Below, piece by piece: positions 24,945-40,216 of a stretch of DNA of 64,000 bases (positions within the stretch are counted from its first letter, which is position 1; each line of letters begins with the position of its first letter). Source of the DNA: Planctomycetales bacterium 10988. Its GTDB lineage: Bacteria; Planctomycetota; Planctomycetia; Pirellulales; Pb10988. The notes under the pieces were generated by a model, which did not search any database, had not been told where the DNA came from, and was given only the letters and a program-made list of their open reading frames with translations. The translations under genes and the position numbers were made by a program. Where the stretch lies: the NCBI GenBank assembly GCA_009664345.1, contig CP043547.1, positions 4,058,709 to 4,122,708 on the forward strand, in the 5' to 3' direction.

Positions 24945-24945
24945 T

Positions 24946-25143: not shown

Positions 25144-26895
25144 GTGGGCCAGCGAAAGAGGAAACTCAGAAAGCCTGACAAAAGAGGACGCATCCCCGCC
25201 GATGTTGGCTGGAAGCAGAACGACCGGGGAAAGTGGGTTCAGCACACTTTCTACCTCGGTTCGGATGAGAACGAAGCCAAGCGCCGTCTAATGAGACTGG
25301 ACGAGTTTTGGGACCGCATCGAGTACCAGCACAATATCACCCAGTACCCTGACGAGTTACCCAAGCCAGAGAAGCCAACATGGACCCAGTTCACACTTGG
25401 CATCGCCCTTCAGCTTGCCGCAGGTGAGTTGCAGATTCCGGTTGAGCGTGGCACAAGCGACCCCGATGGCTACGCCACAAAGATTCACGCCCTTTCTCGG
25501 AAGTACCCGTCGATCAACTTCGTCCCATCTGATGAAGACGCCTATTCTGACGGCGCAGCGTCCGCCCGTGACCGAGCCAACGACCGGATGGAAGCTGCCC
25601 GGTGGATAGCCCGATCTCAAGGCGAGCTTCCGCCACGAGAGATCGCCACGCTTGATCCACACAACCTCTTCGACGCCCTCGACGCTTATGTTGAATACGT
25701 CAAGCAGAAGTACCGGCTTGATGGAGAGACGGTGACGCCTTACGGAGCAGGCAAGCTCGCTATGATCGAGAGGTTCAAGGAGAGGCACGACAATATGCCT
25801 CTCGCTTCCCTAACCTTTGATGGCTGCCAGTCGCTAATTCGTCTTTGGCAGAATCGTCCAAAGGTGAAGGGACGACAGAAGGCCGTCACTAGAAAGACAG
25901 CGCAGAACCATATCGCCGAGTGGATGTGCTTCTTTCGATGGCTAAATCGGACTAACCAGTTCGATTGGCGTAAGCCCCTCGACTTCGACGAGATCGAAAC
26001 CCAAGTCCCCGAAACGGCTGATGACAAACGAAGGAAGGTCCGCCCCAATCAGGTCGAGACCTACGGGATCGATGAACTCAGGCTCCTCAATGAGTACGCC
26101 ACGCCACTTGAACGAGTCCTCTTCCTCTTGGGCTTGAATTGCGGATTTGGAGGTGCCGAACAGGGGTCGATCCACCTGCAAGAGATTTCGCTCTGCCAGC
26201 CGCATCCCTTCGCCGATGTTCTCGGCTTTCAGACTTCACCGGACGATTCGTTCATTAAACGTGTCCGCCTGAAAAGCGGCGTGTATGGCGAGCATCTGCT
26301 TTGGCCCCAGACTGCCGAGGTTGTCAGATGGGCAATCAACCGGCGACAGAAGCAGGGAGACGCAACGCCTGACGCCTTTCTGCTGCTGACCGATGAGGGA
26401 AATCCGTTCTTTCGTCGCACCGAGGGGAACAATCCGGGGAGAACCTTCCAGAACAAGTGGAATGGGCCGACACGGAGGATTCAGGCGGACTACCCGGAGT
26501 TTCCGTGGCTCTCCTTCGGCAAGTTGAGAAAGACGGCTGGCAATCTCGTGCGTCGTCACGCTGGCGGGGAAGTTGCTAGGATTTTTCTGTGCCACGGCAA
26601 GCCCGTCCCTTCCGACGAGTTGCTTGATCTGTACACGAACCGTCCATTCGGCGAGGTGTTCGAGGCTCTGCGGTCCTTGCAGGAACAGTTGCAACCTGTT
26701 TTCGACTCCGCTCCGAAGGACTTGTGGAAGCAGCCGAAGCAGCAATACACGGGGCTGAAGAAGGTCAAGCGGATCAAGCAGTTGAAGGACGACGGTAAGA
26801 GCATCCGTGAGATCGCCGAGATGGTTGGACTTTCCAAGACCACTGTGGGAAGACATCTCGTAGCGATGGAGAAAGAAGAGGCTGAAGCTTCCTAG
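25144..26895 (+). CDS. Divergent tyrosine recombinase (probable island integrase)
   Basis: A 583-residue protein starting at GTG 25144 after GGAGA. A core-binding-like helical region (residues about 150-300) includes a TPYGAGKLAMIERF stretch. A catalytic-like region follows: FLLGLNCGFGGAEQGSI where the first catalytic Arg is usually found, LRKTAGNLVRRHAGG, a CHGKP segment and LYTNRPF with the probable Tyr nucleophile. The usual Arg in the first box is not evident, so activity is uncertain. A C-terminal helix-turn-helix reads SIREIAEMVGLSKTTVGRHL. Its place beside ssrA makes it the best candidate integrase. The stop codon overlaps the island motif. Confidence 0.7.
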   Translation: MGQRKRKLRKPDKRGRIPADVGWKQNDRGKWVQHTFYLGSDENEAKRRLMRLDEFWDRIEYQHNITQYPDELPKPEKPTWTQFTLGIALQLAAGELQIPVERGTSDPDGYATKIHALSRKYPSINFVPSDEDAYSDGAASARDRANDRMEAARWIARSQGELPPREIATLDPHNLFDALDAYVEYVKQKYRLDGETVTPYGAGKLAMIERFKERHDNMPLASLTFDGCQSLIRLWQNRPKVKGRQKAVTRKTAQNHIAEWMCFFRWLNRTNQFDWRKPLDFDEIETQVPETADDKRRKVRPNQVETYGIDELRLLNEYATPLERVLFLLGLNCGFGGAEQGSIHLQEISLCQPHPFADVLGFQTSPDDSFIKRVRLKSGVYGEHLLWPQTAEVVRWAINRRQKQGDATPDAFLLLTDEGNPFFRRTEGNNPGRTFQNKWNGPTRRIQADYPEFPWLSFGKLRKTAGNLVRRHAGGEVARIFLCHGKPVPSDELLDLYTNRPFGEVFEALRSLQEQLQPVFDSAPKDLWKQPKQQYTGLKKVKRIKQLKDDGKSIREIAEMVGLSKTTVGRHLVAMEKEEAEAS

Positions 26896-26905
26896 GCACC
26901 TGCTA
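26893..26905 (+). promoter_or_regulatory. Island motif copy 1 (TAGGCACCTGCTA)
   Basis: Lies 38 nt before the start at 26944 and overlaps the integrase stop codon. Confidence 0.7.
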
Positions 26906-26943
26906 CTGGTCCCAGTTTTCAATCTCGAACTGGGAGATCGCAA

Positions 26944-27411
26944 ATGTCCAAGAGCAACGCCACCGAAGTCATCGCACGATTCTGGATCATCGGGTTTCTG
27001 ATCTCATTGCCCTTCAGTTTGCCAGCGATCCTTGCTGGAGTCCTCTCTCTTCCCTTCGTGGCTTTCATCGCCCTCATCGTCGCCCTGTTCTACAACGGGG
27101 GCCAATGGCTCGGTCATCGCCTCCTCTTCGACGGGACTCCCGAGTACGAGGACTTTAAGGCTCAAGGCAAGGACGCATGGTTCGATCATTCGGCTCCGTG
27201 GCCGTTCCGACCCGACGACGAGTTTCTCGCATCTTCAGAAGTCGAGCCACGAGCGAGATGGCGGTGCGAAGTCTGCCACGCTGAGGTTGTTGATCTCGAC
27301 CAGCCGTGCTGGAACTGTGGTGTCGAGTGGCTGTGCCCGAACTGTCACGCTCCCGTGGCCGACGAGTTTGCAGTTTGCGGTCGGTGTGGGAACAACCCTC
27401 TCGGAAAGTAG
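26944..27411 (+). CDS. Membrane protein with C-terminal double zinc ribbon
   Basis: 155 residues. One long or two short hydrophobic segments fill residues 12-55 (FWIIGFLISLPF, FVAFIALIVALFY). A cytosolic-looking C-terminus carries four CxxC pairs (CEVC, CWNC, CPNC, CGRC) that should bind two zinc ions. GGGAGAT precedes the ATG. It is the first gene after the integrase on the same strand, with its own motif copy. Function unknown. Confidence 0.75.
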   Translation: MSKSNATEVIARFWIIGFLISLPFSLPAILAGVLSLPFVAFIALIVALFYNGGQWLGHRLLFDGTPEYEDFKAQGKDAWFDHSAPWPFRPDDEFLASSEVEPRARWRCEVCHAEVVDLDQPCWNCGVEWLCPNCHAPVADEFAVCGRCGNNPLGK

Positions 27412-27421
27412 GCACCTGCTA
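27409..27421 (+). promoter_or_regulatory. Island motif copy 2 (TAGGCACCTGCTA)
   Basis: Lies 50 nt before the start at 27472. Its TAG is the stop codon of the preceding gene. Confidence 0.7.
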
Positions 27422-27471
27422 GTCAGGAAGCGCTTTGTGCCTCAAACATTCCAACGAGAGGAGATTGTCCC

Positions 27472-27717
27472 ATGAAGATGGATGTCACCGACTGCGAAGT
27501 TCTCAGCCTCGATACCGGAGTGATCGACTGCCCAGCGACCGGCGAAAAAGTGCCAGTCCTGTTTATGACAGTGCGGATCACCGGCCAAGGGATTGTCAAT
27601 CTGGCGATCAGAAACCCACGGCGACTGAAGCACGACGTGCCGCTCGTCATTCGGCGGTCCACCGTTCTGAACGGTGGGAAGTTCGTTCCCGAGCATCCAG
27701 AAGGAGAAGTTGAATGA
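27472..27717 (+). CDS. Unknown 81-residue protein
   Basis: A small beta-rich looking protein starting MKMDVTDCEVLSLDTGVIDC. No known motif. GAGAGGAGA gives a strong ribosome site before the ATG. Its stop overlaps the next start by four bases (ATGA), so the two genes are translationally coupled. Confidence 0.65.
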   Translation: MKMDVTDCEVLSLDTGVIDCPATGEKVPVLFMTVRITGQGIVNLAIRNPRRLKHDVPLVIRRSTVLNGGKFVPEHPEGEVE

Positions 27718-28112
27718 GCAAAGACATTCCGATGATCTCTCTTGTTCGGAAGGGGACCAACAACTATCCGAGGTACGTCTTGATGAAGGCGGACACACTC
27801 AGGAACCCAAGCTATTGGACTGGTCTTGGATGGAGCGTGAATGAAACTGCTGCCCTCCTGTTCGATGACTTGAATGACGCAGCTTGGGTCTACCACGACT
27901 TGATGACCGATGCCTTGAGCGACCGTCCTTGCCATCGCTTCATCGCACCGCTCTACATCGAGATGTACGGGGACCGACCAGACTTGGCCGATCTCCGGTC
28001 TTGGTTGGAGAAGGCCGTCAGGGTCGTAGTGGACGCTCCGAGTCATGGATCGGGTCCACAAGATTCTGTTGTCATCATGATTCTGGACACGGAGGACACG
28101 AAGCCCGTCTGA
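27714..28112 (+). CDS. Unknown 132-residue protein
   Basis: Starts MSKDIPMISLVRKGTNNYPR; acidic and soluble, with no membrane segment or known motif. Coupled to the preceding gene by an ATGA overlap. After it, a TCCAACTTTTGTA element lies in the short gap before the HEAT-repeat gene. Confidence 0.65.
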   Translation: MSKDIPMISLVRKGTNNYPRYVLMKADTLRNPSYWTGLGWSVNETAALLFDDLNDAAWVYHDLMTDALSDRPCHRFIAPLYIEMYGDRPDLADLRSWLEKAVRVVVDAPSHGSGPQDSVVIMILDTEDTKPV

Positions 28113-28124
28113 GAGTTCAGCCAT

Positions 28125-28137
28125 TCCAACTTTTGTA
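28125..28137. promoter_or_regulatory. Imperfect dyad TCCAACTTTTGTA
   Basis: One-mismatch relative of TACAA-N3-TTGTA found at 37263 and 31698. It sits 35 nt before the HEAT-repeat gene. Possible operator. Confidence 0.35.
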
Positions 28138-28171
28138 TCGATGGCGGTAACTACTACTAGAGAACATCGTC

Positions 28172-28763
28172 ATGCAGGACCACAGACAACTCATCGACAA
28201 CCTTCGCACTTTCGCTCATCGAACTGACATCGAGCGAGTCAAGGAGGCCGTCCAATCCTTACGACCGTTTGGTGACGAAGCGGTCCTTGGTTTGGCAGAC
28301 GCTCTCGAAGATGACGACGACTACGTTCGGGTCATGGTCCTCGAAATCTTGTACGAGTGGGAAGGCGACGCCTCGGCGGTCCTGAACTTAGTCATCAGAT
28401 CGCTGGACGACGCTGACAGGATCGTCCGCATCTGCGCAGCTTCGGTGGTCTCCCAGCACGTTGAGAGAGCAGAAGATGCTCTGCCGGTCCTTCTGAGGTG
28501 GTTGGATACCGACGACGAACACAGCCGCCTCACCGCTGCCGCCCTGATCTTGCGAATCGCCCAGTCAGCATGACGAGATGATGGCGGTCTTGGCTGAGGG
28601 CACGAAGTTCGACGACTCGACGATCCGCTGTCTGACCGCATGGCTGCTCACGGGGCTTCGTGACGTGACACCCGAAGTCATTCCCCTGTTGCAGCAGATG
28701 CTCACGGACCCAGATGAGCTTGTGCGGTCAGTGGTTGAAGAAGAGTTGGGGTCACTCGGATGA
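28172..28763 (+). pseudogene. HEAT-repeat protein, apparently frameshifted
   Basis: The first frame (28172-28573) encodes about five HEAT-like helical repeats such as DDDDYVRVMVLEILYEWEGD and ends at TGA. A second frame, shifted by +1 and usable from about 28560 (internal ATG at 28578), carries on with VIPLLQQMLTDPDELVRSVV to 28763. Together they make one protein of about 197 residues. Either the gene is broken or two coupled parts are made. A paralogue at 40274 is split at an equivalent place. Confidence 0.7.
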
Positions 28764-29138
28764 GTCGATCTCTGCGGTCAAGTCTGCGGCGTGGTCCAAA
28801 GTTTGTAATGAACGAGAAGCCGACTGCGGCCCGAAGGCTAAAGACGGCTCGATGTCACCAACCTTGTTCCTGCGGAACACAATGTCCGGTGACACGTCAT
28901 CTGGCACAGGCCCAGAGATGTCGATTTTTTCGACCTCGTGCGGTCGTACATCCACTGAGTCCCATCCGTCACCGTAATCGTGAGCAAGTCGAGTCAACTT
29001 TGCCGAGTCAAGGTCGGCGAGACGGGAGGCATCCCAGTCAGACGGTGCTTCGATCACGAGCCGCTTACGCCACACGACCGTTTCCTCTTGCCAGAGATCG
29101 ACAAAGTGCTTCGTTGTTTGTTCTGTTGCATCAGACAT
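28752..29138 (-). CDS. Unknown 128-residue protein
   Basis: Starts MSDATEQTTKHFVDLWQEET. The frame is open further upstream, but ATG 29138 after AGGGAAT is the sensible start. The middle, LAHDYGDGWDSVDVRPHEVE, is acidic. No domain recognised. It converges on the HEAT gene, overlapping its end by 12 bases. Confidence 0.6.
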   Translation of the reverse strand: MSDATEQTTKHFVDLWQEETVVWRKRLVIEAPSDWDASRLADLDSAKLTRLAHDYGDGWDSVDVRPHEVEKIDISGPVPDDVSPDIVFRRNKVGDIEPSLAFGPQSASRSLQTLDHAADLTAEIDSSE

Positions 29139-29323
29139 GGTTCGGATTCCCTTCCTTGGTCGGTGCAACCGTCGTGCGGTGCTACCGAAGCGAGATGGCG
29201 GCATTTTACCACGATGAAGGGAATAGCGCAAATCGCCGCTCGGTTTGTTTCCACAGACCAGCCCACCGTTTTCTGTCACGAAATCGTGGCCTCCTCACTC
29301 TGATAGGTGCGGAGGACTTTTCT

Positions 29324-29638
29324 ATGACAGACGACACACTTCTCACATCCGCACTTCAGAATTTCGGCCCCAAACTCTTCACCCGCATCTCACAGTCGGA
29401 GATGTGTGAAGCCTTGGGACTTTTGGACCAAAAACAATTGGCGGCTCGGCTGGGTCTCAGCTACGACGCATTCCGGTGGCGGGTGTCAAAGGGCAGACTG
29501 CCGAAGCCCACGGTGAGATTAAGTCGGCGTGCGTACTACACCGCCGAGCAAGTGGACGCTCTTGAAATGCAGGAGGCTCAGTCAAACAATTCGGCAGCCA
29601 AAAGCAAGGAGGACAACAATGGCTCGTCGAAAAAGTAA
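29324..29638 (+). CDS. Small helix-turn-helix protein (MerR/excisionase-like)
   Basis: 104 residues. QLAARLGLSYDAFRWRVSKG looks like a helix-turn-helix followed by a wing (LPKPTVRLSRRAYYTAEQVDALE) of the kind in MerR-like or excisionase proteins. GGAGGA precedes the ATG. It overlaps the start of the primase-like gene by 20 bases, so it probably regulates or accompanies it. Confidence 0.7.
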   Translation: MTDDTLLTSALQNFGPKLFTRISQSEMCEALGLLDQKQLAARLGLSYDAFRWRVSKGRLPKPTVRLSRRAYYTAEQVDALEMQEAQSNNSAAKSKEDNNGSSKK

Positions 29639-31616
29639 ACCGCAAGTATTCAGTCGATGGAAGGATGTGCCAAGCACGTTGGCTACTCGAAACAGTTGGA
29701 AACTGCGTGGCAGAAAGGTCAACGCCAATGCGGAACCGGCTGCGACTATCGAGCAAGTTGAAGAACGACAAATGACGGTCATCGACCACACGGCAAAGAT
29801 CGTCAAGGTCATTCACCTGTACCACGAGAACCAAACCACGCCTACCAACGTATCCCCGCTGGAACGTGCCAAGCAAAGTTTCTTTCGGGCGTTCGTGAAG
29901 CCAGCCAACCGCAGGAGACTCATCAAGCGCTGCAAAGGTGCGTATGTCACTGACTCCGCAGACGAACGGTTTTGGGATTCTTCGATTGACGAGGAAGGCT
30001 GGCGGACCTTCAAGGAGTCAATGACGCTCCAGCGTACCGAGAGCCATCTTTCAGGCCGAGAAGAATACGGCATCTTCGGAGGTGAGAACTCATGCCACCT
30101 GATGATCGATCTCGACTTGCACAACGTGCCATACTCACTGTTCCTTCGACGCCTCAATGTCTTGTTGGACCATTTTCATGGGAAGTACCGTTGTCATGTT
30201 CAGGTGGCTGAGCGAGATGCTCGTGGCGTTCACATGATTCTCTTCTTCGGTAACAAGTCACCACTCAAGACTCGCCGGAAGTGGTTGAAAGAAGAATTCC
30301 AAAAGTTGGAACGGAAGCACCCTGACATTTATCTGACGGCTGACAGGATCAATGCTCTTCCCCGAGAGGAACGTAACGGCATCAAGCCAGTCGAAGTGTT
30401 TCCCGCTCGCCAGTTTGGTCAACGCCTACCGTTGGCAAGAGGCCGCATCGTCCTGCCGGACAAGCCACTGCACTTTATCTGGCGACGAGGAAAACTTCGG
30501 CAGGATGTCGAAGGCTACATGGATTGGCTGATCGACCGGGACCGACAATACATGGACAAGGATACGGTCCTGTCATTCGTGATGGAGCGTCTCGATCTGA
30601 GTTGCGCCGCTGAGAACAGTGGCAATGATGCTGCATCGCAGGTTCGAGTACCGGCGAAGCAGGCCGCCACCAAGAAGAGCCATAAGAAAGGCAAGCTGCG
30701 GGGGAAGACTCGTGGCGAGTTGGTCAAGCTGTGGAACGATGCAGACCTTGGCTTGTTTGCCAACTTCAACGCAGGAATCTACATCACGCTGAGTGTGTTA
30801 CACGCTCAAGGCGACTCTGAGGTTGATGCCGTCGAAACCGTGATGCGTTTCGTTGATGAGTTGCCAGATGTCTCAATTTGTTCTCGATTGCCGGATCAAC
30901 GAGAGAAGGTGGACACGGACATTCGGAGAATTGCTCGTGGCGTTTGGCAGGACGAGCCGTCGTACACTTGGCAGGTCGTGTCGGCGGAATGGGAGAAGAT
31001 CGGATTCCGGTTGTCTGACAAGACGACTTGGGATGCTCGACGTGACGCTCCCCCGCCCGTGGTCCCTTCAGATGTTGAGATCACGTTCACCGACGAGGAG
31101 AAGCAGGCGTTAGTTGAGAAGTTGGCTCCCATTGTGTTCGGTGAGAAACAGGCAAAGAAACCTGAGAAGCAAGAGCGATTGTTTCAAGCGATGGCCCTCT
31201 TCCTGCGGTACATCAAAGGCTGTGATCGTGAGCTACCTGTTTCAGCGTTACCCGCCATTCTCGAAAGTTTCGGACTGAAAGTTCGGAATCACGACAAACA
31301 GACCGCCTTCTTCAACTGTCTGCGTGAAATCGAGTGGTTGTACGTTTCTGTCGATTACGACCACCCCCGAAAGAGTGGCGGCGGCGTAACGCATCGGGCA
31401 AGGCGATACGGCATCGGAAAGGCAATGGCGTACAAGTTCGGCGAACCTGCTCCGTCTCTCTCTTTCTTATACCCCCCACAACAAATGGAACTATATTCTG
31501 TCTCCCGTTTTCGACGGGCAGACCCGAGACTGGATGAAATCCCCAGTTTTGAGGACCAAATCGACGATATCGGTGAAGTTCAGGCCGGAACCTCAACCAA
31601 GCCAGACAACGAATGA
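29619..31616 (+). CDS. Primase-like replication protein (archaeo-eukaryotic primase fold)
   Basis: From ATG 29619, after AGGAGG, the protein has 665 residues. A basic N-terminus leads to a primase-type core: CHLMIDLDLHNVP near residue 160 gives an acidic DxD pair, and RDARGVHMILFFG near 203 gives the sxH-like segment and a strand, as in archaeo-eukaryotic primases of mobile elements. A WRRGKLRQDVEGYMDWL region and a long helical C-terminus follow; no helicase motif is seen. Likely role: replication initiation or priming of the island when mobile. The first 30 residues of the longer open frame are not needed. Confidence 0.65.
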   Translation: MARRKSKPQVFSRWKDVPSTLATRNSWKLRGRKVNANAEPAATIEQVEERQMTVIDHTAKIVKVIHLYHENQTTPTNVSPLERAKQSFFRAFVKPANRRRLIKRCKGAYVTDSADERFWDSSIDEEGWRTFKESMTLQRTESHLSGREEYGIFGGENSCHLMIDLDLHNVPYSLFLRRLNVLLDHFHGKYRCHVQVAERDARGVHMILFFGNKSPLKTRRKWLKEEFQKLERKHPDIYLTADRINALPREERNGIKPVEVFPARQFGQRLPLARGRIVLPDKPLHFIWRRGKLRQDVEGYMDWLIDRDRQYMDKDTVLSFVMERLDLSCAAENSGNDAASQVRVPAKQAATKKSHKKGKLRGKTRGELVKLWNDADLGLFANFNAGIYITLSVLHAQGDSEVDAVETVMRFVDELPDVSICSRLPDQREKVDTDIRRIARGVWQDEPSYTWQVVSAEWEKIGFRLSDKTTWDARRDAPPPVVPSDVEITFTDEEKQALVEKLAPIVFGEKQAKKPEKQERLFQAMALFLRYIKGCDRELPVSALPAILESFGLKVRNHDKQTAFFNCLREIEWLYVSVDYDHPRKSGGGVTHRARRYGIGKAMAYKFGEPAPSLSFLYPPQQMELYSVSRFRRADPRLDEIPSFEDQIDDIGEVQAGTSTKPDNE

Positions 31617-31995: not shown

Positions 31996-32006
31996 AGCAG
32001 GTGCCT
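31996..32006 (-). promoter_or_regulatory. Island motif copy 3 (AGGCACCTGCT)
   Basis: Follows the stop of the 32010 gene. No convincing gene lies downstream, so it may serve a lost gene. Confidence 0.55.
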
Positions 32007-32009
32007 CGA

Positions 32010-32300: not shown

Positions 32301-32338
32301 GGTTGTACTCACGGTTGGGTATGATGTTGCTGCTCTGT

Positions 32339-32350
32339 TAGCAGGTGCCT
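32339..32350 (-). promoter_or_regulatory. Island motif copy 4 (AGGCACCTGCTA)
   Basis: Lies 38 nt before the start at 32300 and downstream of a terminator. Confidence 0.75.
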
Positions 32351-32707: not shown

Positions 32708-32719
32708 TAGCAGGTGCCT
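32708..32719 (-). promoter_or_regulatory. Island motif copy 5 (AGGCACCTGCTA)
   Basis: Lies 45 nt before the start at 32662. Confidence 0.7.
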
Positions 32720-33018: not shown

Positions 33019-33059
33019 TTGGTCTCCTGTCTGAGTGAGTGACGATGTTGATGCGGAAG

Positions 33060-33071
33060 TAGCAGGTGCCT
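33060..33071 (-). promoter_or_regulatory. Island motif copy 6 (AGGCACCTGCTA)
   Basis: Lies 41 nt before the start at 33018; overlaps the stop of the preceding gene. Confidence 0.7.
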
Positions 33072-33493: not shown

Positions 33494-33536
33494 GGGCACG
33501 GCTCCTGAGTGTGGTGATGTAGTTCCAACGCTCAGG

Positions 33537-33548
33537 TAGCAGGTGCCC
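33537..33548 (-). promoter_or_regulatory. Island motif copy 7 (GGGCACCTGCTA)
   Basis: Lies 43 nt before the start at 33493. Confidence 0.7.
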
Positions 33549-33561
33549 ATGCTCGGGCAGG

Positions 33562-33981
33562 TCAGGCCGTTGTTCGCTTCGCTCGCTTCTCAGCACGTCG
33601 GCGGTGATGTTCTGCCACGGTTTCACGCCATTCGGCGTTACCTCCGTACTGATCGAGTGGGACGGCTTCGAGATACGACAACGGACAGGAGTAGTAGAAC
33701 GGCCCCATTGACTCCTCCATCGGTTTGTAGCCCCATTCGCCTTGGTCGCAGCGCAGCAGGTCGCATTGAATCCAACGATGAGTTGATTGCACTGCCTTGC
33801 CGTCCTTGGTGAAGGTCCGCTCCCAAACACTCTACAGAACGCCGCTGAAGACGTTGCCTCGGTAGCAATGGCGAAGGCAAGTGCTTGTCACCAGCATCTC
33901 GCCAGTGTCACGCTCCCAGCCTTCAACACGCTGAGCGATGAGTTCCTTGCGGTTTACGCTGTGCGGGTAATACCAGCCCAT
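33562..33981 (-). pseudogene. DUF6927-like plasmid protein with an internal amber codon
   Basis: Reading from ATG 33981 (after CAGGAGACC) the frame begins MGWYYPHSVNRKELIAQRVE and runs 139 codons to 33562 without a shift, broken only by one TAG, around codon 52, between VFSGVL and SVWERTF. Downstream it continues through WGYKPMEESMGPFYYSCPLSY. The ends fit a small protein family frequent on plasmids and islands (DUF6927-like, from memory). A TGG-to-TAG change in an LWSVWE-like block would explain it. Both halves look under coding constraint, so the change is recent or the codon is read through. Confidence 0.75.
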
Positions 33982-34026
33982 GTTTGGTCTCCTGCTTCTT
34001 GGGTGAAAGTTGTTTGGTGCCCAAAA

Positions 34027-34038
34027 AGCAGGTGCCTA
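34027..34038 (-). promoter_or_regulatory. Island motif copy 8 (TAGGCACCTGCT)
   Basis: Lies 45 nt before the start at 33981; its TAG is the stop of the preceding gene. Confidence 0.7.
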
Positions 34039-34590
34039 CTCAACATCATGCTGCGATTGTCGTCGCTGCAAATCTCTCCGAAGTGATGAATTGGACGGCA
34101 CTCTGATTGGTGCGTCCAGCAGGCGAGTTCTCTGCTCGTCTGTGATTGGTGAACCATCACACGGCATCACGAGCATGAGGTGGTTCCTAAACCGAGCGTA
34201 TTCGACACCGAGTTCTTCAGCGGCCTCACGCATGGTGAACTGCTTGCCGGTTCGCCAATTGGTGGACTTGTAGACCCGCAAGAAGAGTGCGCCTTCTGCC
34301 ACCGGACTCAACTTCTCATTGCGAAGTCGCTCTTTGGCTTCTGCGATTTCGTCGTTTCGGTACTGCTGACGTGCTGGCTCCAGATCGATCAAATGCGTTG
34401 GTTGATCGTCGTTGACATCGGCCCACACGAGCAACACAAGCCGACCGTCACGATGTTCCAGCCGCACAAGATCATCGTGGAAGCCGTGGCCATCTGCACG
34501 GACCTGAAACGCCGAACCATCGCAGCGGCATTTGACGATCTGCTCCGAGTTGTCGTCGTTGGACAGGCAAAATGTGGCATGGTCATTCAT
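34036..34590 (-). CDS. Unknown 184-residue protein
   Basis: Starts MNDHATFCLSNDDNSEQIVK. The N-terminal 70 residues look beta-rich (CRCDGSAFQVRADG, LVLLVWADV); the C-terminal half is helical with FTMREAAEELGVEYARFRNH, which could be a helix-turn-helix. No family recognised. Thirteen bases separate it from the gene upstream, so both share a transcript. Confidence 0.6.
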   Translation of the reverse strand: MNDHATFCLSNDDNSEQIVKCRCDGSAFQVRADGHGFHDDLVRLEHRDGRLVLLVWADVNDDQPTHLIDLEPARQQYRNDEIAEAKERLRNEKLSPVAEGALFLRVYKSTNWRTGKQFTMREAAEELGVEYARFRNHLMLVMPCDGSPITDEQRTRLLDAPIRVPSNSSLRRDLQRRQSQHDVE

Positions 34591-34603
34591 CTCTTGACTC
34601 CGA

Positions 34604-34909
34604 TCATAGGGGAATCACGTCGTACTCGGTGTCTTCGCCACGTTCGAGTTTGGAGATGGCCTCGAACGACTTCATCTCCCGTTCGAGATTCATTCTGCAC
34701 AAACTGTTCAACTTGCTGACGAAGGCGATGGCCACTGGATGGTTGATGAGATCATCACCGGCGACACCGCTCCGATGAAGAGCAAGCAGGTGCCTGTGAA
34801 AGCAGCCGACGACGGCAACGAGATTACAGGCATCCTGAACGGCGTTGGCGTCAGCGGCAGCATTCTGAACCGTCTCATCTTGGCCGTTGGCGATTGCGGT
34901 CTTGGACAT
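34604..34909 (-). CDS. Unknown 101-residue protein
   Basis: Starts MSKTAIANGQDETVQNAAAD; Ala-rich N-terminus, then a helical part. It contains an internal copy of the island motif, read as Arg-His-Leu-Leu. CGGAGAAACCAC precedes the ATG. Family not recognised. Confidence 0.6.
   Translation of the reverse strand: MSKTAIANGQDETVQNAAADANAVQDACNLVAVVGCFHRHLLALHRSGVAGDDLINHPVAIAFVSKLNSLCRMNLEREMKSFEAISKLERGEDTEYDVIPL
34785..34795 (-). repeat. Island motif copy 9, inside a coding region
   Basis: AGGCACCTGCT read as Arg-His-Leu-Leu within the 34604-34909 gene. No start codon follows at the usual distance. Confidence 0.6.
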
Positions 34910-34950
34910 GTGGTTTCTCCGAGAGAACGTTTCGTGATTGTTCCCTCGGT

Positions 34951-34962
34951 TAGCAGGTGCCC
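34951..34962 (-). promoter_or_regulatory. Island motif copy 10 (GGGCACCTGCTA)
   Basis: Lies 41 nt before the start at 34909. Confidence 0.7.
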
Positions 34963-34969
34963 AAGTCGA

Positions 34970-35695
34970 TCAGAGATCGGCCTTTTTCATGGCGTCTTGA
35001 TACTTCTCTTCAAGGTCGCCATCGAGAGCGATGTTTTGGTAGATCGCCAGCGTTTCTCGCCGGGCGTGGCCGGTGATGAGTTGAAGCTCAGCATCGGCCA
35101 AACCTGAATTCCGTGTGAGCCATGTGATCGCCTGATGACGGAAGGTGTGCGGCGTGGCTTTCACGCCAGCTTTCTCAGCGAAGTCCTTCACGATCTGCTG
35201 GACCCTGCGAGTTGAATACTTTGTGTTCCGACGAGTCTGGAACAGCCAGCGGTTTTTCGGGTGAGCGGCTATGTGCGTCCGCAGCGCCGTGGCGAATGTC
35301 TTGCCGAACAGGACGTATCGATCCTTTGATCCTTTCCCCTGATTGATCCTGATTTTGCAATTCTCAAGGTCCACCTCGGCAATCTGCATGTTGCACAGTT
35401 CGCTGACCCTAACGCCGGTATAGAACAGCAGACGCAACATGAGCGAGTGCTGAACGTCGTCAGCCTGATCGACGATCTTGTAGAACCGGCGAAAGTCGTC
35501 GGCGTTCAGCACCTTGGGCAGTTTCTTCGGCTTTTTGGCCGGTCGAAGCTCGCACTTCTGTCGCACTCGCTTGCTGACGTATCGCCAGTCATCGTATGTC
35601 AGGCCGTGCTTGCGAACGATCCGGGCGATCTGCGACACGATTTCCGATTTCGCTTTTCCGTTTTGGGATGCGCCATTGGCGTTGTTTTCGGTCAT
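34970..35695 (-). CDS. Tyrosine recombinase (XerD-like integrase)
   Basis: 241 residues. The catalytic set is complete: TGVRVSELCNM (first Arg), the Lys-bearing beta-hairpin around RINQGKGSKDRYV, HTFRHQAITWL (HxxR), ITGHARRETLAIY (His and the Tyr nucleophile). The N-terminal core-binding domain is short but present. It should perform site-specific strand exchange, either island excision, multimer resolution or cassette exchange. It differs from the divergent recombinase at 25144, so the island carries two of them. Confidence 0.9.
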   Translation of the reverse strand: MTENNANGASQNGKAKSEIVSQIARIVRKHGLTYDDWRYVSKRVRQKCELRPAKKPKKLPKVLNADDFRRFYKIVDQADDVQHSLMLRLLFYTGVRVSELCNMQIAEVDLENCKIRINQGKGSKDRYVLFGKTFATALRTHIAAHPKNRWLFQTRRNTKYSTRRVQQIVKDFAEKAGVKATPHTFRHQAITWLTRNSGLADAELQLITGHARRETLAIYQNIALDGDLEEKYQDAMKKADL

Positions 35696-35757
35696 TTCAG
35701 GACTCTCCAGAGGGTGAAAGTGGCGATTCTATTTCGTGAACCGCTTGTTCTGCGAAA

Positions 35758-35770
35758 TAGCAGGTGCCTA
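35758..35770 (-). promoter_or_regulatory. Island motif copy 11 (TAGGCACCTGCTA)
   Basis: Lies 62 nt before the integrase start at 35695; its TAG is the stop of the preceding gene. Confidence 0.7.
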
Positions 35771-36205
35771 CTTCTTCTGCTGAAGATGGAGGAACACTTG
35801 CCGGACCCGCTGGCCTTCATCCACATCGGCCCAGCCGGAAGGAAACAGTTCACGCAGTGCGCCGTCCACGGCCTCGGCGGTCGCCTGCAATCCCAAGGAC
35901 TTGAGAGCGTCCAGCAGATCGGTGTGATCGCTGGTCAGCTTGGGTCGTTGTTTCTTGGCGGTCGCCTTGCTCTTTCGGTTGAACAGGACGGGACCGTTCA
36001 AGCCGATCCCGGTACGGCGAATGTCGAGACATTTCTGCTGAAGTTCCAAATCGTAAACAGGACGCTTGCAGGTCTCAGTTCGGATCGGTCGAGGAAACAC
36101 GCCGTCTTTCACGAGTGCAAAGAAGCGGCTCCTCGAAAGCTGACACATGGCGGCAATTTCCACAGAAGAAACAACCGCCTTTGTGGGCTTTTCTGGGATG
36201 CTCAT
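35768..36205 (-). CDS. AlpA/MerR-like helix-turn-helix protein
   Basis: 145 residues from ATG 36205 after GAGGAA. VSSVEIAAMCQLSRSRFFAL followed by a DGVFPRPIR wing matches the winged helix-turn-helix of AlpA/excisionase-type regulators. The basic middle (NRKSKATAKKQRPK) may contact DNA, and the C-terminus is acidic. Directly upstream of the integrase gene on the same strand, so a role in integrase control or excision is reasonable (inference). A longer open frame upstream overlaps the RuvB-like gene and is not preferred. Confidence 0.7.
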   Translation of the reverse strand: MSIPEKPTKAVVSSVEIAAMCQLSRSRFFALVKDGVFPRPIRTETCKRPVYDLELQQKCLDIRRTGIGLNGPVLFNRKSKATAKKQRPKLTSDHTDLLDALKSLGLQATAEAVDGALRELFPSGWADVDEGQRVRQVFLHLQQKK

Positions 36206-36281
36206 GGGATGATTCCTCAAAGAAAACAGGACTGTTTTGAGCGACTTGTAGGCAGCATTTGAGATGTTTCCTGCCGTCGAG

Positions 36282-37262
36282 TCAGACGGTTTCGAACTCG
36301 ATTTCAGCCAGATGCTCTCGTCCAAGCTGGCTCAACTGCCTCAGTCCGCTGTCAGATTTCACGACAAGACCCGAGCGCAGAAGGAACGGCTCGACGGTCG
36401 CCGTCACAACTTTCGTGCTGACGCCCAACATGGAGGCAAGGACGTTGAGACGCTGGCTCGAAGGACCGAGAAGTCGGACGTACTTCTGCTGGAAGTTATC
36501 GAGACCACGGGACGAGATTCTTTCGATCTGACAAGCATGTAGCAGGTGCCTTACTTCGATCCTGTTTTCACCCTGAGCCACGGCCACACGACGAGCCGCA
36601 GCAAGCAGACGCAGGGCGATCCGAGGAGTCTGCCTCGCTCGCTGAGCGATCTCACTGAGAAGTTCAGGCTGATGATCCCATCGAAGCGTGGCACAACGCT
36701 GGTGAACGATCTTCCCCAGTTCTTCGTCGCTGTAGTAGTCAAGATGAAGGACCATCTTGAATCGATCCACGAGCGGAGGGATGAGGCCATCGGGATCGGT
36801 CGTTGCTCCGATCAAGGTGAACGGCGCAACGGGGATCGACTGCACGGACTTGCCGCCGCTAAGAAAAATGCGGCGTTTGTCCAGCACGATCAGCAAGGCG
36901 TGCTGCTGAGTCGGATGAAGCAGATGAATCTCATCCAAAAACAAGATGCCCTCTGAAGCACTGAGCAGAACTGAATTCAGTTCGGCAGCATTCGATACTG
37001 ACTGTGCGAGAACTTCGGTGAATGGAACGCACTTCTCATCCGCCAAAACTTGGACGAGCGCCGTCTTGCCAAGACCGGGCGGACCACACAAGAGAATTTC
37101 ATCGAGACGAGTGTTCTCGTGAAAGCTGTAGTCAACGGCGATCTGCAACGCCTGTTTGACGTGATCCTGACCGATGACGTGCGAGAAGCTCGAAGGCCGA
37201 ACATCTCGCAATTCGGTCGGCGTCTGTTCCTGTTCGTCGAAGTCCACGAAGTTTACTCCCAT
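36282..37262 (-). CDS. RuvB-like AAA+ branch-migration ATPase
   Basis: About 326 residues from ATG 37262. It has every RuvB landmark: RPSSFSHVIGQDHVKQAL, Walker A GPPGLGKT at 60-67, Walker B ILFLDEIH around 105-112, the sensor TLIGATTDPDGL, the arginine-finger region PLVDRFKM and a winged-helix C-terminus. RuvB drives Holliday-junction migration with RuvA, yet no ruvA or ruvC is nearby, so this is an island-borne version distinct from the chromosomal one. The island motif occurs inside it at 36540. A perfect TACAA-N3-TTGTA dyad abuts the start codon, and no good ribosome site is seen. Confidence 0.9.
   Translation of the reverse strand: MGVNFVDFDEQEQTPTELRDVRPSSFSHVIGQDHVKQALQIAVDYSFHENTRLDEILLCGPPGLGKTALVQVLADEKCVPFTEVLAQSVSNAAELNSVLLSASEGILFLDEIHLLHPTQQHALLIVLDKRRIFLSGGKSVQSIPVAPFTLIGATTDPDGLIPPLVDRFKMVLHLDYYSDEELGKIVHQRCATLRWDHQPELLSEIAQRARQTPRIALRLLAAARRVAVAQGENRIEVRHLLHACQIERISSRGLDNFQQKYVRLLGPSSQRLNVLASMLGVSTKVVTATVEPFLLRSGLVVKSDSGLRQLSQLGREHLAEIEFETV
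36540..36551 (-). repeat. Island motif copy 12, inside the RuvB-like gene
   Basis: AGGCACCTGCTA read as Arg-His-Leu-Leu in VRHLLHAC. Same reading phase as the copy at 34785. Confidence 0.65.
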
Positions 37263-37275
37263 TACAAAAGTTGTA
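37263..37275. promoter_or_regulatory. Perfect dyad TACAA-AAG-TTGTA at the RuvB-like start
   Basis: An inverted repeat with 5-bp arms immediately upstream of the ATG. Likely operator that also masks initiation. Two one-mismatch relatives exist at 28125 and 31698. Confidence 0.5.
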
Positions 37276-37290
37276 TTGCTGATGTCCTGA

Positions 37291-37303
37291 TAGCAGGTGC
37301 CTA
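37291..37303 (-). promoter_or_regulatory. Island motif copy 13 (TAGGCACCTGCTA)
   Basis: Lies 28 nt before the RuvB-like start; its TAG is the stop of the preceding gene. Confidence 0.7.
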
Positions 37304-37924
37304 GCTGCACGCTGCTTCAACTTGCTCGTACCCGAGCGATTCGAAGGCCGCACGAAGGTCGTCTTCGTCCGGCCAGCCGCCCTGATCGTCCACGTTCTCA
37401 AGAGCGCTGCATCGGTGGTTGCTCAACCAGTCGTAGACTTGCTCGGCCCAGTCGTCGGGAAGGTCGTAATCGTCCTTCAGGCCGATAGCGGCGAGAGGAA
37501 TGTTCTCGAAGGTGGCTTCGAGTTCCATCTCGCTGTAGTGAGACTCGTCCAAGATGCAGTAATCCTCAAGCTGCTCCAGCAATCCGTGCAGCACCTTGAA
37601 CGCCTCAGTGATCTCGCCGTCTCGATGCACGAGAACCGACCACCCTTTAATCCAGCCGCAAACCCAGTGGTGGTGATCCTCTTCGATCACATCGGGATCG
37701 TCGGTGTCGGCGTCGATAAACGGCTGCAACGCCTTGCCGATCTGAATGCTGTTGCTTTGGTCAAGCAGGCCCGAGTCACGGTGATGCCCGTAATAGATGA
37801 ACCAGTCCTCGGGTCGCTCCAGTTCGCTGTCTCGGAACCATGCGAACGAGTCCCATCGTCGCCAGTTTCCAGCCGCTTCCTTCGCTGCTTGCTCAAGTTC
37901 GAGTTCGCCAAGTCGGTTGCTCAT
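37301..37924 (-). CDS. Unknown 207-residue acidic protein
   Basis: Starts MSNRLGELELEQAAKEAAGN. Trp-rich middle (EDHHHWVCGWIKGWSVLV) with helical ends; no membrane segment. It resembles unnamed plasmid proteins that carry an HxWVG-type stretch, but I cannot name the family. GACGGAGACC precedes the ATG. One of the minus-strand series with its own motif copy. Confidence 0.65.
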   Translation of the reverse strand: MSNRLGELELEQAAKEAAGNWRRWDSFAWFRDSELERPEDWFIYYGHHRDSGLLDQSNSIQIGKALQPFIDADTDDPDVIEEDHHHWVCGWIKGWSVLVHRDGEITEAFKVLHGLLEQLEDYCILDESHYSEMELEATFENIPLAAIGLKDDYDLPDDWAEQVYDWLSNHRCSALENVDDQGGWPDEDDLRAAFESLGYEQVEAACS

Positions 37925-37965
37925 TTCAGGTCTCCGTCAGTGGGTGGTGAAGTTGTCTGGCGGAC

Positions 37966-37977
37966 TAGCAGGTGCCT
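37966..37977 (-). promoter_or_regulatory. Island motif copy 14 (AGGCACCTGCTA)
   Basis: Lies 41 nt before the start at 37924. Confidence 0.7.
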
Positions 37978-38024
37978 GAAACAAGCAAGAACGGCACTCC
38001 TTTGCCGCCCTTCTCAACCACCAC

Positions 38025-38477
38025 TCACGCAGCTTCAACGACCAGCGGTTCCTCGTCCGACGACAGCGCCAACAATTCGATGTTCAGATTCTTCGTGTCG
38101 AGACGACCCACACGGGGCATCTTTGGCAACGTGGCAATCAAATCGGTCTTCACAGCCTTGATCGCAGATTCCACGTCCTCAATCCGCTTCTTCACGGCGG
38201 CGTCTTCCTTTTCGCCATTGGTCATCGCCTCGTGGATTGCGTCACGGAGCATGGTGAGGGCAGCGTCACGTTCGATTCCGGCCCGTTCCCAGAAGTAAGC
38301 CAACACGCTGACCAGCGGGATGCTCACGGTCGGCGAGATCATCTGGTCCGTGTGTTTCTCAACATGGCCACGGACACGGACGAGCAAAGTCTCGTCAATT
38401 TCGTGACGACCGACCGACAGATCGGCGGACTCGTTCTTCCACGATTTGGCGAGAAGGGCTTTCGCATTTGCGAACAT
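38025..38477 (-). CDS. Unknown 150-residue helical protein
   Basis: Starts MFANAKALLAKSWKNESADL at ATG 38477 after CAGGAGAC. Mostly helical, with a coiled-coil-like stretch in the middle (KKRIEDVESAIKAVKTDLIA). The longer frame upstream is not needed. No known domain. Confidence 0.65.
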   Translation of the reverse strand: MFANAKALLAKSWKNESADLSVGRHEIDETLLVRVRGHVEKHTDQMISPTVSIPLVSVLAYFWERAGIERDAALTMLRDAIHEAMTNGEKEDAAVKKRIEDVESAIKAVKTDLIATLPKMPRVGRLDTKNLNIELLALSSDEEPLVVEAA

Positions 38478-38547
38478 GGTTTGTCTCCTGTGATGGTGGT
38501 GGGTGAGTAAGAACACCGAGCAGGACCGCAGGTGACAGCAAGGGATG

Positions 38548-38582
38548 CTGGGGTCTCCGTGTGTTGTGCAGGAAGACCCCAG
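38548..38582 (-). promoter_or_regulatory. Leader hairpin upstream of the 38477 gene
   Basis: A perfect 9-bp stem CTGGGGTCT / AGACCCCAG around a 17-nt loop, in the 147-nt leader between the motif and the start codon. No T-run, so not a typical terminator. Confidence 0.5.
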
Positions 38583-38624
38583 ATCGTCAGTGTCCACCGG
38601 CTGATTCCTGCTCGGCTGGCAAAC

Positions 38625-38637
38625 TAGCAGGTGCCTA
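38625..38637 (-). promoter_or_regulatory. Island motif copy 15 (TAGGCACCTGCTA)
   Basis: Lies 147 nt before the start at 38477, with a hairpin in between; its TAG is the stop of the preceding gene. Confidence 0.65.
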
Positions 38638-38982
38638 CTCATCGCCGAGCAGTTGCCGCACCTTGTCGGTCACGTCGGCCTCGAAAGCGTCAGCGGCGAG
38701 ATCGGTGAAAGGGAACTCGGCGTTGCGAGCGTATTGGTTGGCTGCAAATGTGCCGTCGAGGAATCCTGCGCAAGCGTTGTTCGAGTACCGTAACGTGTGG
38801 ATACAGAGATCATTTCCAATGACGTACTCGTGCTGGTCACACTTCTCTGCGATTAGGTGAGACAGGCATTCGTCTTGGTCGTCTTCGTCGGCGTCTTTTA
38901 GATCGGCAACCACGTTGTCGGCCACGTCGGTAACTGCCGCCCAGTAGTCGTCGTTCTCTCGTTTGGCTTGCTGTCGGCACAT
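38635..38982 (-). CDS. Unknown 115-residue acidic protein
   Basis: Starts MCRQQAKRENDDYWAAVTDV. Strongly acidic, with several Cys and His (CDQHEYVIGNDLCIHTLRYS). Helical ends. Could be a DNA-mimic type, but there is no direct evidence. CTGGAGAAAGC precedes the ATG. Family unknown. Confidence 0.6.
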   Translation of the reverse strand: MCRQQAKRENDDYWAAVTDVADNVVADLKDADEDDQDECLSHLIAEKCDQHEYVIGNDLCIHTLRYSNNACAGFLDGTFAANQYARNAEFPFTDLAADAFEADVTDKVRQLLGDE

Positions 38983-39195
38983 GCTTTCTCCAGTGCAAAG
39001 TTGGATTGAAGGACCGAGAGAGCCGCCCGTCAGTGATCCACCAAAGGCATCGAGGCTTCACAGATGCAGTGGGTTTCGTTGCACGCTGCGCAGTCCGTTG
39101 CAACGATCCTGCTGAGTGTTGGGCGTCAAAGCCAAAGCGTCGGTGCGATCACTTCGTGGTGGCTCAACTCGGTTGTCCCGATCAGGACTGGCTGA

Positions 39196-40101
39196 CTAGC
39201 AGGTGCCTAATTCCTCGGTGACGGGCTGCTGTTCGGACTGGCGGACATGGCTCAGCAAGAAGTCCACCGCCTTCGATGCGGTGGCAGCGGCCTTAAAGAT
39301 GAACTTTGTGTCCCCCTTCATCGCCTTCAGCCAATGGTCAAGGTAGCTGGTGCAGTTCTCAGCGTTCTCATTGGCAGGCAATCCAAGTTCGGCCATCAGG
39401 AACGACGCTCCCAGTTCGGCGACCAATTCACCAAGGGCGTAAGCGTGATCTTCATTCGCCCGATCAAACCCGATGCGCTTCTCGCTCCAATGGGTCATCT
39501 CGTGTGCGAGCGTCTGGTAGTACCCTTCGCTCGTCTCGAACTGATGGCGATGCGGCATTTGGATAAAGTCGCCACCGGGCGAGTAGAATGCTCGGTTTCC
39601 ACCATGTCGCAGGTTGACACCGGCAGCAACGACCAGCCGGTCCATCGCCTCGAACCGCTCGAAGATCGTGCCGGACGGCTGAGCGAAGCCGACTCGGAAC
39701 TGGTCGAGACCTGTGGTTTGTTCCGCATTAAAGACGTTGAAAGTACGCATCACGAGGAACTTGTCTTCAACTTGCTCCCCTTTTTCGTTCGTGCGTTCAC
39801 GGGAGACAGGGCGATACAGGACCACTTGAATGGACTTCTCACCCTTCGTGACGCTGGCACCAGCTTGTTTGATTTGCTGGAACGTGCCGAACCATTTGCT
39901 CTGGTAGCCGTACTTCATTGCCACAACTTGCAAGAGCAACTGGTTGATGCCGTTGTACGGCTTGCCGGTACTGAGCGATGTGGCCAGCCCGAGGCCGTTG
40001 GGGTCTGCTGCCCAAGGCCGTCGCCATGCGGGGACGCCGCCAGCTTCCAAACTCTCAATGATTGTGTTGGTGATATTCGTGCGGATGTCGTTTGCGTTCA
40101 T
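39196..40101 (-). CDS. ArdC-type antirestriction protein
   Basis: 301 residues. The N-terminal ssDNA-binding domain begins MNANDIRTNITNTIIESLEA and includes VPAWRRPW. A C-terminal zincin-like domain carries LAHEMTHWSE near residue 198 (HExxH) and an ELVAELGASFL helix with the third metal ligand. ArdC-like proteins protect incoming DNA from restriction during transfer of plasmids and integrative elements. GGAGACGACC precedes the ATG. It marks the 5' end of the minus-strand series and supports the island being transferable. Confidence 0.9.
   Translation of the reverse strand: MNANDIRTNITNTIIESLEAGGVPAWRRPWAADPNGLGLATSLSTGKPYNGINQLLLQVVAMKYGYQSKWFGTFQQIKQAGASVTKGEKSIQVVLYRPVSRERTNEKGEQVEDKFLVMRTFNVFNAEQTTGLDQFRVGFAQPSGTIFERFEAMDRLVVAAGVNLRHGGNRAFYSPGGDFIQMPHRHQFETSEGYYQTLAHEMTHWSEKRIGFDRANEDHAYALGELVAELGASFLMAELGLPANENAENCTSYLDHWLKAMKGDTKFIFKAAATASKAVDFLLSHVRQSEQQPVTEELGTC
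39197..39209 (-). promoter_or_regulatory. Island motif copy 16 (TAGGCACCTGCTA)
   Basis: Overlaps the end of the ArdC-type gene, which stops inside it. The next start is 214 nt away. Confidence 0.65.
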
Positions 40102-40141
40102 GGTCGTCTCCGTTGAGGTGTGTGATCGGAACGACGACCTT

Positions 40142-40152
40142 GCAGGTGCCTA
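40142..40152 (-). promoter_or_regulatory. Island motif copy 17 (TAGGCACCTGC)
   Basis: Lies 40 nt before the ArdC-type start; no gene ends here, so it belongs to the start side. Confidence 0.75.
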
Positions 40153-40204
40153 AGCCACCTTCGAAAACGCCCAATACAGCCTTTGGATTGACGGCGGCGT
40201 GGAG

Positions 40205-40216
40205 AGGCACCTGCTA
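40205..40216 (+). promoter_or_regulatory. Island motif copy 18 (AGGCACCTGCTA)
   Basis: Lies 57 nt before the + strand start at 40274, mirror-image to copy 17. Confidence 0.75.

Follow-up and report, generated by a model that had tools for sequence, protein, structure and literature searches.

A CACC-centred repeat ahead of almost every gene of planctomycete genomic islands as the probable core of an element-specific promoter

The locus considered here is a mobile genomic island of Planctomycetales bacterium 10988 that lies within a stretch of 64,000 nucleotides (nt) of contig CP043547.1 (positions 4,058,709 to 4,122,708; this whole stretch is referred to as the window), and the element in question is a short repeat, GGCACCTGC, which is found ahead of almost every gene of the island. 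The island encodes ardC, a RuvB-like ATPase, a tyrosine integrase and an AlpA-like protein, the last of these assigned with an E value of 0.0058, under Pfam's cut-off, together with many small proteins without a family match. The window contains 18 exact copies of GGCACCTGC, all within positions 26895-40214 (13.3 kb), while the number expected by chance is 0.54 on average and 3 at the maximum in 100 shuffles, and a chance origin of the array is excluded. When one mismatch is allowed, 32 matches are found in the whole window and 24 in the island, and because these 24 include the 18 exact copies, there are only 6 variant copies in the island. The copies end in CTA (14 copies), CTT (3) or CAA (1), and the base before the repeat is A in 87% of the 31 copies in the two islands of the host genome.

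Two of the 18 exact copies are intragenic and are taken as coding coincidences because both, as judged by eye, encode RHLL in frame, which leaves 16 intergenic copies. A plausible start codon is located downstream of 15 of these 16; measured from the first base of the motif to the first base of the start codon, ten of the 16 are 49-56 nt ahead of the start, and the remaining five with a start are at 61, 68, 73, 158 and 225 nt. Downstream of the copy at 32005 there is no convincing gene. The orientation of the motif is that of the gene in all 15 copies with a start. In many cases the motif overlaps the stop codon of the gene before it, but that stop can also be tens of nt off, whereas the next start follows within a narrow range of distances (mode 52), so that the motif belongs to the start side; furthermore, no gene end is near the divergent pair of copies (Table 1). 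The original prediction, which was made from the sequence of the window, had claimed 18 exact copies with none elsewhere in the window, an orientation that follows the gene and a placement on the start side, and the counts, the shuffles and the distances bear out each of these. Its statement that fifteen copies precede a start codon holds for 15 of the 16 intergenic copies, with the correction that two of the 18 are intragenic, and its statement that 16 copies end in CT or CTA is corrected in its count, as 17 of the 18 have T at position 10.

Table 1. Features of the island and its border in the window (positions of the window; gene start positions and lengths in amino acids (aa) in the remarks; CDS, coding sequence).
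Feature	Coordinates	Strand	Remark
tmRNA gene	24590..24947	+	adjoining the island
Putative promoter motif	26895..26903	+	49 nt ahead of 155-aa zinc-ribbon gene (26944)
Putative promoter motif	27411..27419	+	61 nt ahead of 81-aa gene (27472)
Motif copy, array tail	31997..32005	-	without convincing downstream gene
Putative promoter motif	32341..32349	-	49 nt ahead of 96-aa gene (32300)
Putative promoter motif	32710..32718	-	56 nt ahead of 80-aa gene (32662)
Putative promoter motif	33062..33070	-	52 nt ahead of 95-aa gene (33018)
Putative promoter motif	33539..33547	-	54 nt ahead of 140-aa gene (33493)
Putative promoter motif	34028..34036	-	55 nt ahead of MGWYYPH gene (33981)
Exact word, outside the system	34786..34794	-	in 101-aa CDS (34604-34909), RHLL
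Putative promoter motif	34953..34961	-	52 nt ahead of 101-aa gene (34909)
Putative promoter motif	35760..35768	-	73 nt ahead of tyrosine integrase (35695)
Exact word, outside the system	36542..36550	-	in RuvB-like CDS (36282-37247), RHLL
Putative promoter motif	37293..37301	-	54 nt ahead of RuvB-like gene (37247, GTG start)
Putative promoter motif	37968..37976	-	52 nt ahead of 207-aa gene (37924)
Second structured RNA	38500..38617	-	long imperfect hairpin from predicted start site
Putative promoter motif	38627..38635	-	ahead of second structured RNA leader and 150-aa gene (38477)
Structured RNA, ~180 nt (lower border approximate)	39010..39189	-	leader of 115-aa gene; first hairpin at predicted start site
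Putative promoter motif	39199..39207	-	ahead of covarying structured RNA and 115-aa gene (38982)
Putative promoter motif	40142..40150	-	49 nt ahead of ardC (40101), left half of divergent pair
Putative promoter motif	40206..40214	+	68 nt ahead of 105-aa gene (40274), right half of divergent pair

The repeat is not confined to the window. The host genome (G000) is a single contig of 6.65 Mb in which GGCACCTGCTA occurs in 24 copies versus 5 for the reversed control, of which the window accounts for 14 and a second island (I2) for 8, the other 2 being strays. This second island (C1:535806-585600, L028-L031) is homologous to that of the window with the gene order kept; it is partly decayed, and its family and motif class are those of the window island. 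The search for AGGCACCTGCTA covered 396 genomes of the order, and 44 of them contain it once or more; more than three matches are found only in G000 (20), G087 (16), G100 (16) and G191 (10); the three matches of G296 are from a lysine-rich coding repeat and were rejected as an array. Related islands were found mainly via protein searches and not via the motif. A profile of the 101-aa protein had matches in 10 of the 396 genomes, including the window's own, and identified five named loci among 191 candidate stretches, and across the phylum, 9 of 392 genomes, the window's own among them here too, had matches to a profile of the 138-aa protein. Four of the five named relatives of an island gene are planctomycetes. 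One contig labelled Bacteroidales (L074) holds an island of a class otherwise seen in planctomycetes (class A, see below), and this contig is possibly misbinned or the result of a recent transfer. Plasmids contained no match to the 101-aa or the 138-aa protein; the 95-aa protein matched 177 plasmid records at under 60% identity and is no guide to the motif, because it is a widespread mobile-element gene.

In total, 15 distinct islands with eight spellings of a word around CACC were found, the G358 locus being counted with the Roseiconus locus and not separately. The word is uniform inside each island and differs between islands. Class A words are those of the window island (W), I2, G100, G087, G191 and L074. 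Class B comprises L076 from Roseiconus nitratireducens (TGACACCCGCTTG; array on contig NZ_VWOX01000029) as well as G299 and G311b (TAACACCCGCTTG), and the further words are those of class C (L075, GGACACCGGCCAG), class D (G738, AGGCACCCCCTA), class C' (G630, AGGACACCGGCAA), class E (G698, GGACACCAACTA) and class B'' (G031, ACACCCGCAA). The common form is R-CACC-NN-C-(T/A)(A/T)-N6-Y-R, in which NN is mostly TG, CG, GG, CC or AA depending on the class. The repeat of G220 (L100), CGGACACC, with 30 copies on the island-gene strand versus 2 on the other and 1.0 expected, belongs to the same family and retains only CGGACACC and a weak C of the common form. The repeat of L094 is unrelated to the motif family, and that of G311a, TGACACGATGTCA, was rejected as a palindrome with no tie to genes. 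The homologous loci of G062 and G587 (L174 and L172) are without CACC arrays; in these, GGACC is found 44-60 nt ahead of the start of 6 of 9 genes in G062 and 4 of 4 in G587, with about 0.02 expected per gene, and of the three misses, two are integrase genes whose start is doubtfully placed. TCGGACC words, four or five of them on the island-gene strand, are also present in G344 (L095) and G191b (L096), and the GGACC words may represent a ninth word or another promoter class.

The narrow spacing recurs in these islands. For classes A and B, starts were sought 30-90 nt downstream of the motif; the distance in class A has its mode at 52 nt (15 of 67) and is 46-61 nt in 62 of 67, and in class B it is 46-61 nt in 16 of 23, while 29 of 96 class A copies and 9 of 32 class B copies are without a start in that range. 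Measured from CACC, the start is at 48-56 nt in class D (11 of 11 sites), 47-54 nt in class C' (8 of 16), 44-55 nt in class E (6 of 10) and 43-52 nt in class B'' (6 of 8), the other sites of the last three classes being without a start found. The spacing is looser in G220 (11 of 22 at 42-60 nt). Upstream of the class A motif, from -40 to -2, no position exceeds 0.32 bits, and the sole fixed feature after the motif is a pyrimidine-purine step at motif +17/+18, which is found in 26 of 42 deduplicated leaders of class A and 15 of 17 of class B, and one base earlier in 6 of 8 of class C. Classes D, C', E and B'' were discovered after the step rule was fixed and were used as a test: the step is present at CACC+15 in 9 of 11, 7 of 8, 6 of 6 and 5 of 6 leaders, respectively, or 27 of 31 when summed, versus a background of about 25% (24-27%). 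With the sites redefined on CACC, the step is at +15 in 29 of 45 class A and 18 of 20 class B sites and at +14 in 4 of 6 class C sites. In G220, where no selection for a start was applied, the step at this place is again the peak (16 of 30 versus 24%). It is also found in hairpin-free leaders, in 21 of 32 of class A and 10 of 11 of class B.

Two structured RNAs begin close to this step. About 200 gene-free nt separate the motif at 39207 from the 115-aa gene, and they hold a covarying RNA that sits between ardC and the next gene and is kept across three motif classes. The alignment covered seven islands, from classes A, B and C (window, L067, L071, L074, L075, L076 and L093), each cut at the predicted +1, and in it a hairpin GUCC(UGAU)CGGGAC or its covariants begins at +1 or +2 in all seven, with two of the five pairs broken in L075. 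RNAalifold predicted 41 pairs, of which 16 are changed on both sides, a number that has a mean of 8.1 in shuffles and was reached in none of 500, the shuffles ignoring relatedness. When the partners were slid by 1-3 columns, the paired cells fell from 87% to 29-44%, a comparison that is biased towards the unslid structure, since this was derived from that alignment. The RNA had no Rfam family match, and in classes D, C', E and B'' as well as in G220 this opening can be recognized by eye at the equivalent position. The RNA appears to be an undescribed, separate find that would mark the start site. In five islands, the second RNA, which follows the motif at 38635, opens between +1 and +3; its informative changes are few (3 of 37 pairs).

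The repeat itself, its spacing, the initiator step, the change by class and a structured RNA that opens at the predicted +1 can all be read directly from the sequences, and they suggest that the repeat is probably the core of an element-specific promoter, one per gene, ahead of almost every island gene. In such a promoter, CACC would be at -16 to -13 and the near-invariant C at -10, the bases at -12/-11 and the flanks would be specific to the island class, and transcription would start at the purine of the pyrimidine-purine step, 16 nt past the first base of CACC, giving a leader of about 34 nt that is A/C-rich and carries a Shine-Dalgarno site. We infer further that a dedicated trans factor encoded by the element or a helper would read the motif, be it a divergent sigma factor, an RNA polymerase or a protein that appropriates RNA polymerase, and therefore each island type would switch on its whole set of genes with its own password. 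The original prediction had proposed an island-specific promoter or operator, perhaps read by an island sigma factor or regulator, and the promoter is supported by its position on the start side, the narrow spacing, the initiator-like step, the structured RNAs starting there and the way in which all copies of an island change together between islands. It had also described a weak second block after the motif, which holds in part, the fixed portion being the pyrimidine-purine step. Arrays are present both in the host genome and in related islands, and GGCACCTGCTA has just 2 copies outside the two islands of the host, not an equal density across the genome.

The elements of sigma-70 and sigma-54 do not fit the motif. 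At no position from -18 to +44 does a sigma-70 -10 of the form TAnnnT reach 6 of the 102 sites, TTG, as in a sigma-70 -35, reaches 7 of 102 only at CACC +7, +10 and +14 and never upstream, and the sigma-54 form GG-N10-GC is found in 5 of 102. Promoters of the single-subunit phage RNA polymerases (T7 group) are a contiguous block upstream of +1 that is uniform in each phage and differs between phages. They differ from the putative island promoter in that the island block is GC-rich, its predicted +1 is A or G, and no such polymerase was found among the island proteins scanned. The late promoters of T4 resemble it in having a single short block near -10 with one consensus for the whole element. 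However, the T4 block, given as TATAAATA in the figure legend of PMC3014915, is not the GC-rich CACCnnC that precedes nearly every island gene, and the scan of island proteins, as far as it went, revealed no sigma of the gp55 type. How a helper could supply the factor is illustrated by AcaCD, for which one activator motif is described upstream of many units of IncA/C plasmids and of the unrelated islands, such as SGI1, that borrow it (PMC4207636); in contrast, AcaCD fits a class 2 activator working with a promoter, and the island motif itself would extend from -18 to -7. For four of the motif words in the literature, the matches listed look like chance or primer sequence, and among the titles and abstracts listed on planctomycete islands or promoters, none described such an element, most subscription journals being outside the scope of this search.

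An array of operators or stoperators, at each copy of which a single island repressor would block initiation or elongation, thereby silencing the island and setting immunity between related islands, is the best of the alternatives and nevertheless an unlikely one. The stoperators of Cluster A mycobacteriophages are described as 13-bp sites, short and asymmetric, mostly in one orientation, tens per element, with a group-specific consensus (PMC6550527), and the island sites share the asymmetry, the single orientation, the large number per element and the element-specific consensus. The class-specific bases could also serve a repressor while CACC and the initiator serve as the promoter. However, stoperators are repressor-bound and, in the description of PMC6550527, mostly not associated with promoters, whereas the distances of the island motif to the start codon and to the step are nearly constant (in class A, the 62 of 67 at 46-61 nt), and no repressor gene tracking the class was found.

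Still less probable is a two-block promoter in which G-K-Y-R-T-C-A, at CACC+13 to +19, would be a -10 like that of extracytoplasmic function (ECF) sigma factors and transcription would start about ten bases further downstream. ECF promoters have a GGAAC-like -35 and a CGTC-like -10 with about 16 nt between them. GGCACC is close to the GGAACC of the former, and CGTC is at CACC+15 in 12 of 102 sites. However, the gap between the two blocks in the islands is 11 nt, which would be too short for that spacing of sigma-2 and sigma-4, and the first hairpin of the structured RNA, which begins at CACC+15 to +17, would be cut off.

The comparison of island genes showed a patchwork of alleles that the motif does not follow. 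The RuvB-like, AlpA-like and integrase genes have three allele types among the first eight islands and G299, namely W and L074 (for the integrase also L075), I2, G100 and G087, and G191, L076 and G299, which cut across the motif classes. For ardC, G100 is 68% identical to the class-B G299 and 36% to W, and W is 79% identical to the class-D G738. None of these four genes thus has allele types that track the motif class. In eight islands, the nearest relatives agreed in 269 of 273 triple tests between the halves of a unit and in 98 of 113 between neighbouring units, only differences of more than 10 points being used and the triples not being independent. Since the alleles form a patchwork and the motif is constant in an island, the word is likely to be read by something of the island type and not to be a carried recombination site. 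The patchwork could result from crossing over at or near the short shared promoter. The idea of a mobile leader was rejected, as the motif that is absent in W between two genes is present as a one-mismatch copy in G191 and I2, which indicates decay.

It is hard to credit, and we rate it below the two-block promoter, that the motif is a recombination site bounding mobile gene cassettes as in an integron. The shift of phylogeny at unit borders is in its favour, as are one unit of G100 whose absence in G087 runs precisely from one motif to the next while the flanks on either side are retained (one case) and three gene-free tandem units of 60-76 bp in G087. In contrast, the gene order is conserved across islands with no variable cassette order, related ardC alleles are found behind different words (the W/G738 and G100/G299 pairs above), and in the region from -10 to +60 of CACC, the integron attC core is scarce, with GTTRRRY present in 4 of 102 sites and RYYYAAC in 14 of 102 at no fixed place. 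Furthermore, the compact packing of genes puts most borders at a motif anyway, and the initiator step and the narrow leader length would be left unexplained.

The factor that would read the putative promoter was sought among the island genes and beyond them. The RuvB-like protein, the AlpA-like protein and the integrase were rejected, because their allelic types are independent of the motif class, and an antisense RNA was rejected, as the structured RNA has a complement of at most 6-7 bases to its own motif and none in L076. No sigma-like candidate was found at the curated cut-offs of Pfam, NCBIfam and PHROGs in the part of the island genes scanned. Islands of one genus (g30) carry different classes (G031 versus G087, G100 and G191), which argues against a genus-wide host factor. 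In the viral collection, a scan with the 101-aa profile found no relative among 73 pattern matches, and the class A pattern was present in 29 contigs and the GACACC form of class B in 33, with one match each and no array; a helper phage remains a guess, because the two words scanned form no viral array.

The predicted start would also have a consequence for translation. Among the 65 leaders of classes A-C, 16 have a 5-mer complementary to the Shine-Dalgarno region, in every case starting at motif +11 to +18, and complementary 6-mers number 9 versus a shuffle mean of 2.1 and a maximum of 6, or, when the leaders of the new classes are added, 11 versus a mean of 3.6 and a maximum of 10. If +1 is at the step, most of the complementary arm would be missing from the gene's own RNA and would be carried only by RNA that enters from upstream. 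In this minority of leaders, the bases just ahead of +1 would pair with the Shine-Dalgarno site, so that poor translation may affect RNA reading through from the preceding gene and spare RNA that starts at the gene's own promoter. This would resemble gene e of T4, for which the late promoter is described as giving an RNA without the 5' part of the hairpin that hides the ribosome site in the longer early RNA (PMC3014915), and we infer such a block for a minority of genes only. That the motif itself is a leader RNA element acting on translation or RNA processing is the least credible of the alternatives: the narrow distance to the start codon, the overlap with the preceding stop codon and a subset of leaders in which the Shine-Dalgarno site is part of a hairpin agree with it, whereas the structured RNAs begin 15-17 nt past the start of CACC and do not include the motif, which is also present ahead of divergent first genes. 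Pairing of the motif with ribosomal RNA is unlikely, because the motif changes by island. The start-associated sequences of Cluster K phages, 13 bp long, typically in one orientation before many genes and about half of them with adjoining inverted repeats (PMC3203893), differ in being 3-7 bp before the start with a Shine-Dalgarno core (AGGAG), whereas the island motif is about 40 nt further upstream and has none.

Several observations weigh against the promoter and the block that we derive from it. The count of 16 of 65 leaders is within that of the shuffles (mean 9.7, maximum 17), the position being what stands out. When the 5-mer is limited to +11 to +15, the count is 15 of 65 versus a swap mean of 4.5 and a maximum of 10 (0 of 500), with that limit chosen post hoc and swapped Shine-Dalgarno regions as the null. 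The new classes alone are not significant (6 of 31 versus 3.6, 70 of 500), and the pooled count with no position limit is 22 of 98 versus a mean of 14.5 and a maximum of 23. In class A leaders with a hairpin, the step is exactly at +17/+18 in only 5 of 10 (+16 to +18 in 9 of 10). The predicted -10 is without an AT-rich melting region. No gene common to the islands tracks the motif class; four genes (81-aa, 132-aa, zinc-ribbon and 115-aa) come out highest in class A and are weak or absent in the other classes, where the fetched flanks may fall short, and none of the four matched a convincing DNA-binding family. The homologous loci L077, L078, L097, L098 and L178, several of them short or decayed, are without such a repeat. 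Finally, in two class B islands (L076 at 11725 and L093 at 11679) a terminator-like hairpin with a T run, identified by eye, lies between the motif and the gene of the 96-aa family, past the predicted start; this hairpin would also cut the gene's own transcript and is unexplained by a promoter at the motif.

Some further observations concern gene-free motifs and the borders of the islands. After the integrase gene of G087 (L068, C1:3649005-3649315) there are four tandem motifs 60-76 bp apart in a gene-free region, and after that of G100 (L066, C24:89163-89265) there is one gene-free motif; about 100 bp further on from each there is an inverted motif. The gene-free unit contains AAAGGAGGTG, a near-perfect Shine-Dalgarno word, without an evident reading frame. 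The MGWYYPH gene of the window (33832-33981, minus strand) is a homologue of the 140-aa protein with a frame of only 49 aa in this island, and its homology to relatives spans 126 aa, past that frame. A gene for an IS4/5-type transposase is found beside the tmRNA gene (23467-24318, plus strand, in the window). On the far side of the G087 island, 36.2 kb away and beyond the last motif, there is a copy of 16 bases from the 3' end of the tmRNA; no such copy was found in the window, in 20 kb on either side or in the 40 kb of G100.

It is possible, and we offer it only tentatively, that these islands use a promoter type beyond the known bacterial sigma factors, in which a GC-rich CACCnnC and an initiator, in at least eight passwords, would be read by an undiscovered factor of the element or its helper. 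Genes swapped between classes would then take on the local password, and the class would act as an identity barrier. A private start signal that changes as a set would imply that a dedicated factor initiates transcription from it and that a natural series of at least eight promoter classes is mutually orthogonal. It could help to explain how the little-known islands of planctomycetes switch on and exchange modules while keeping control of them, and the words may provide an orthogonal promoter set for use in planctomycetes.

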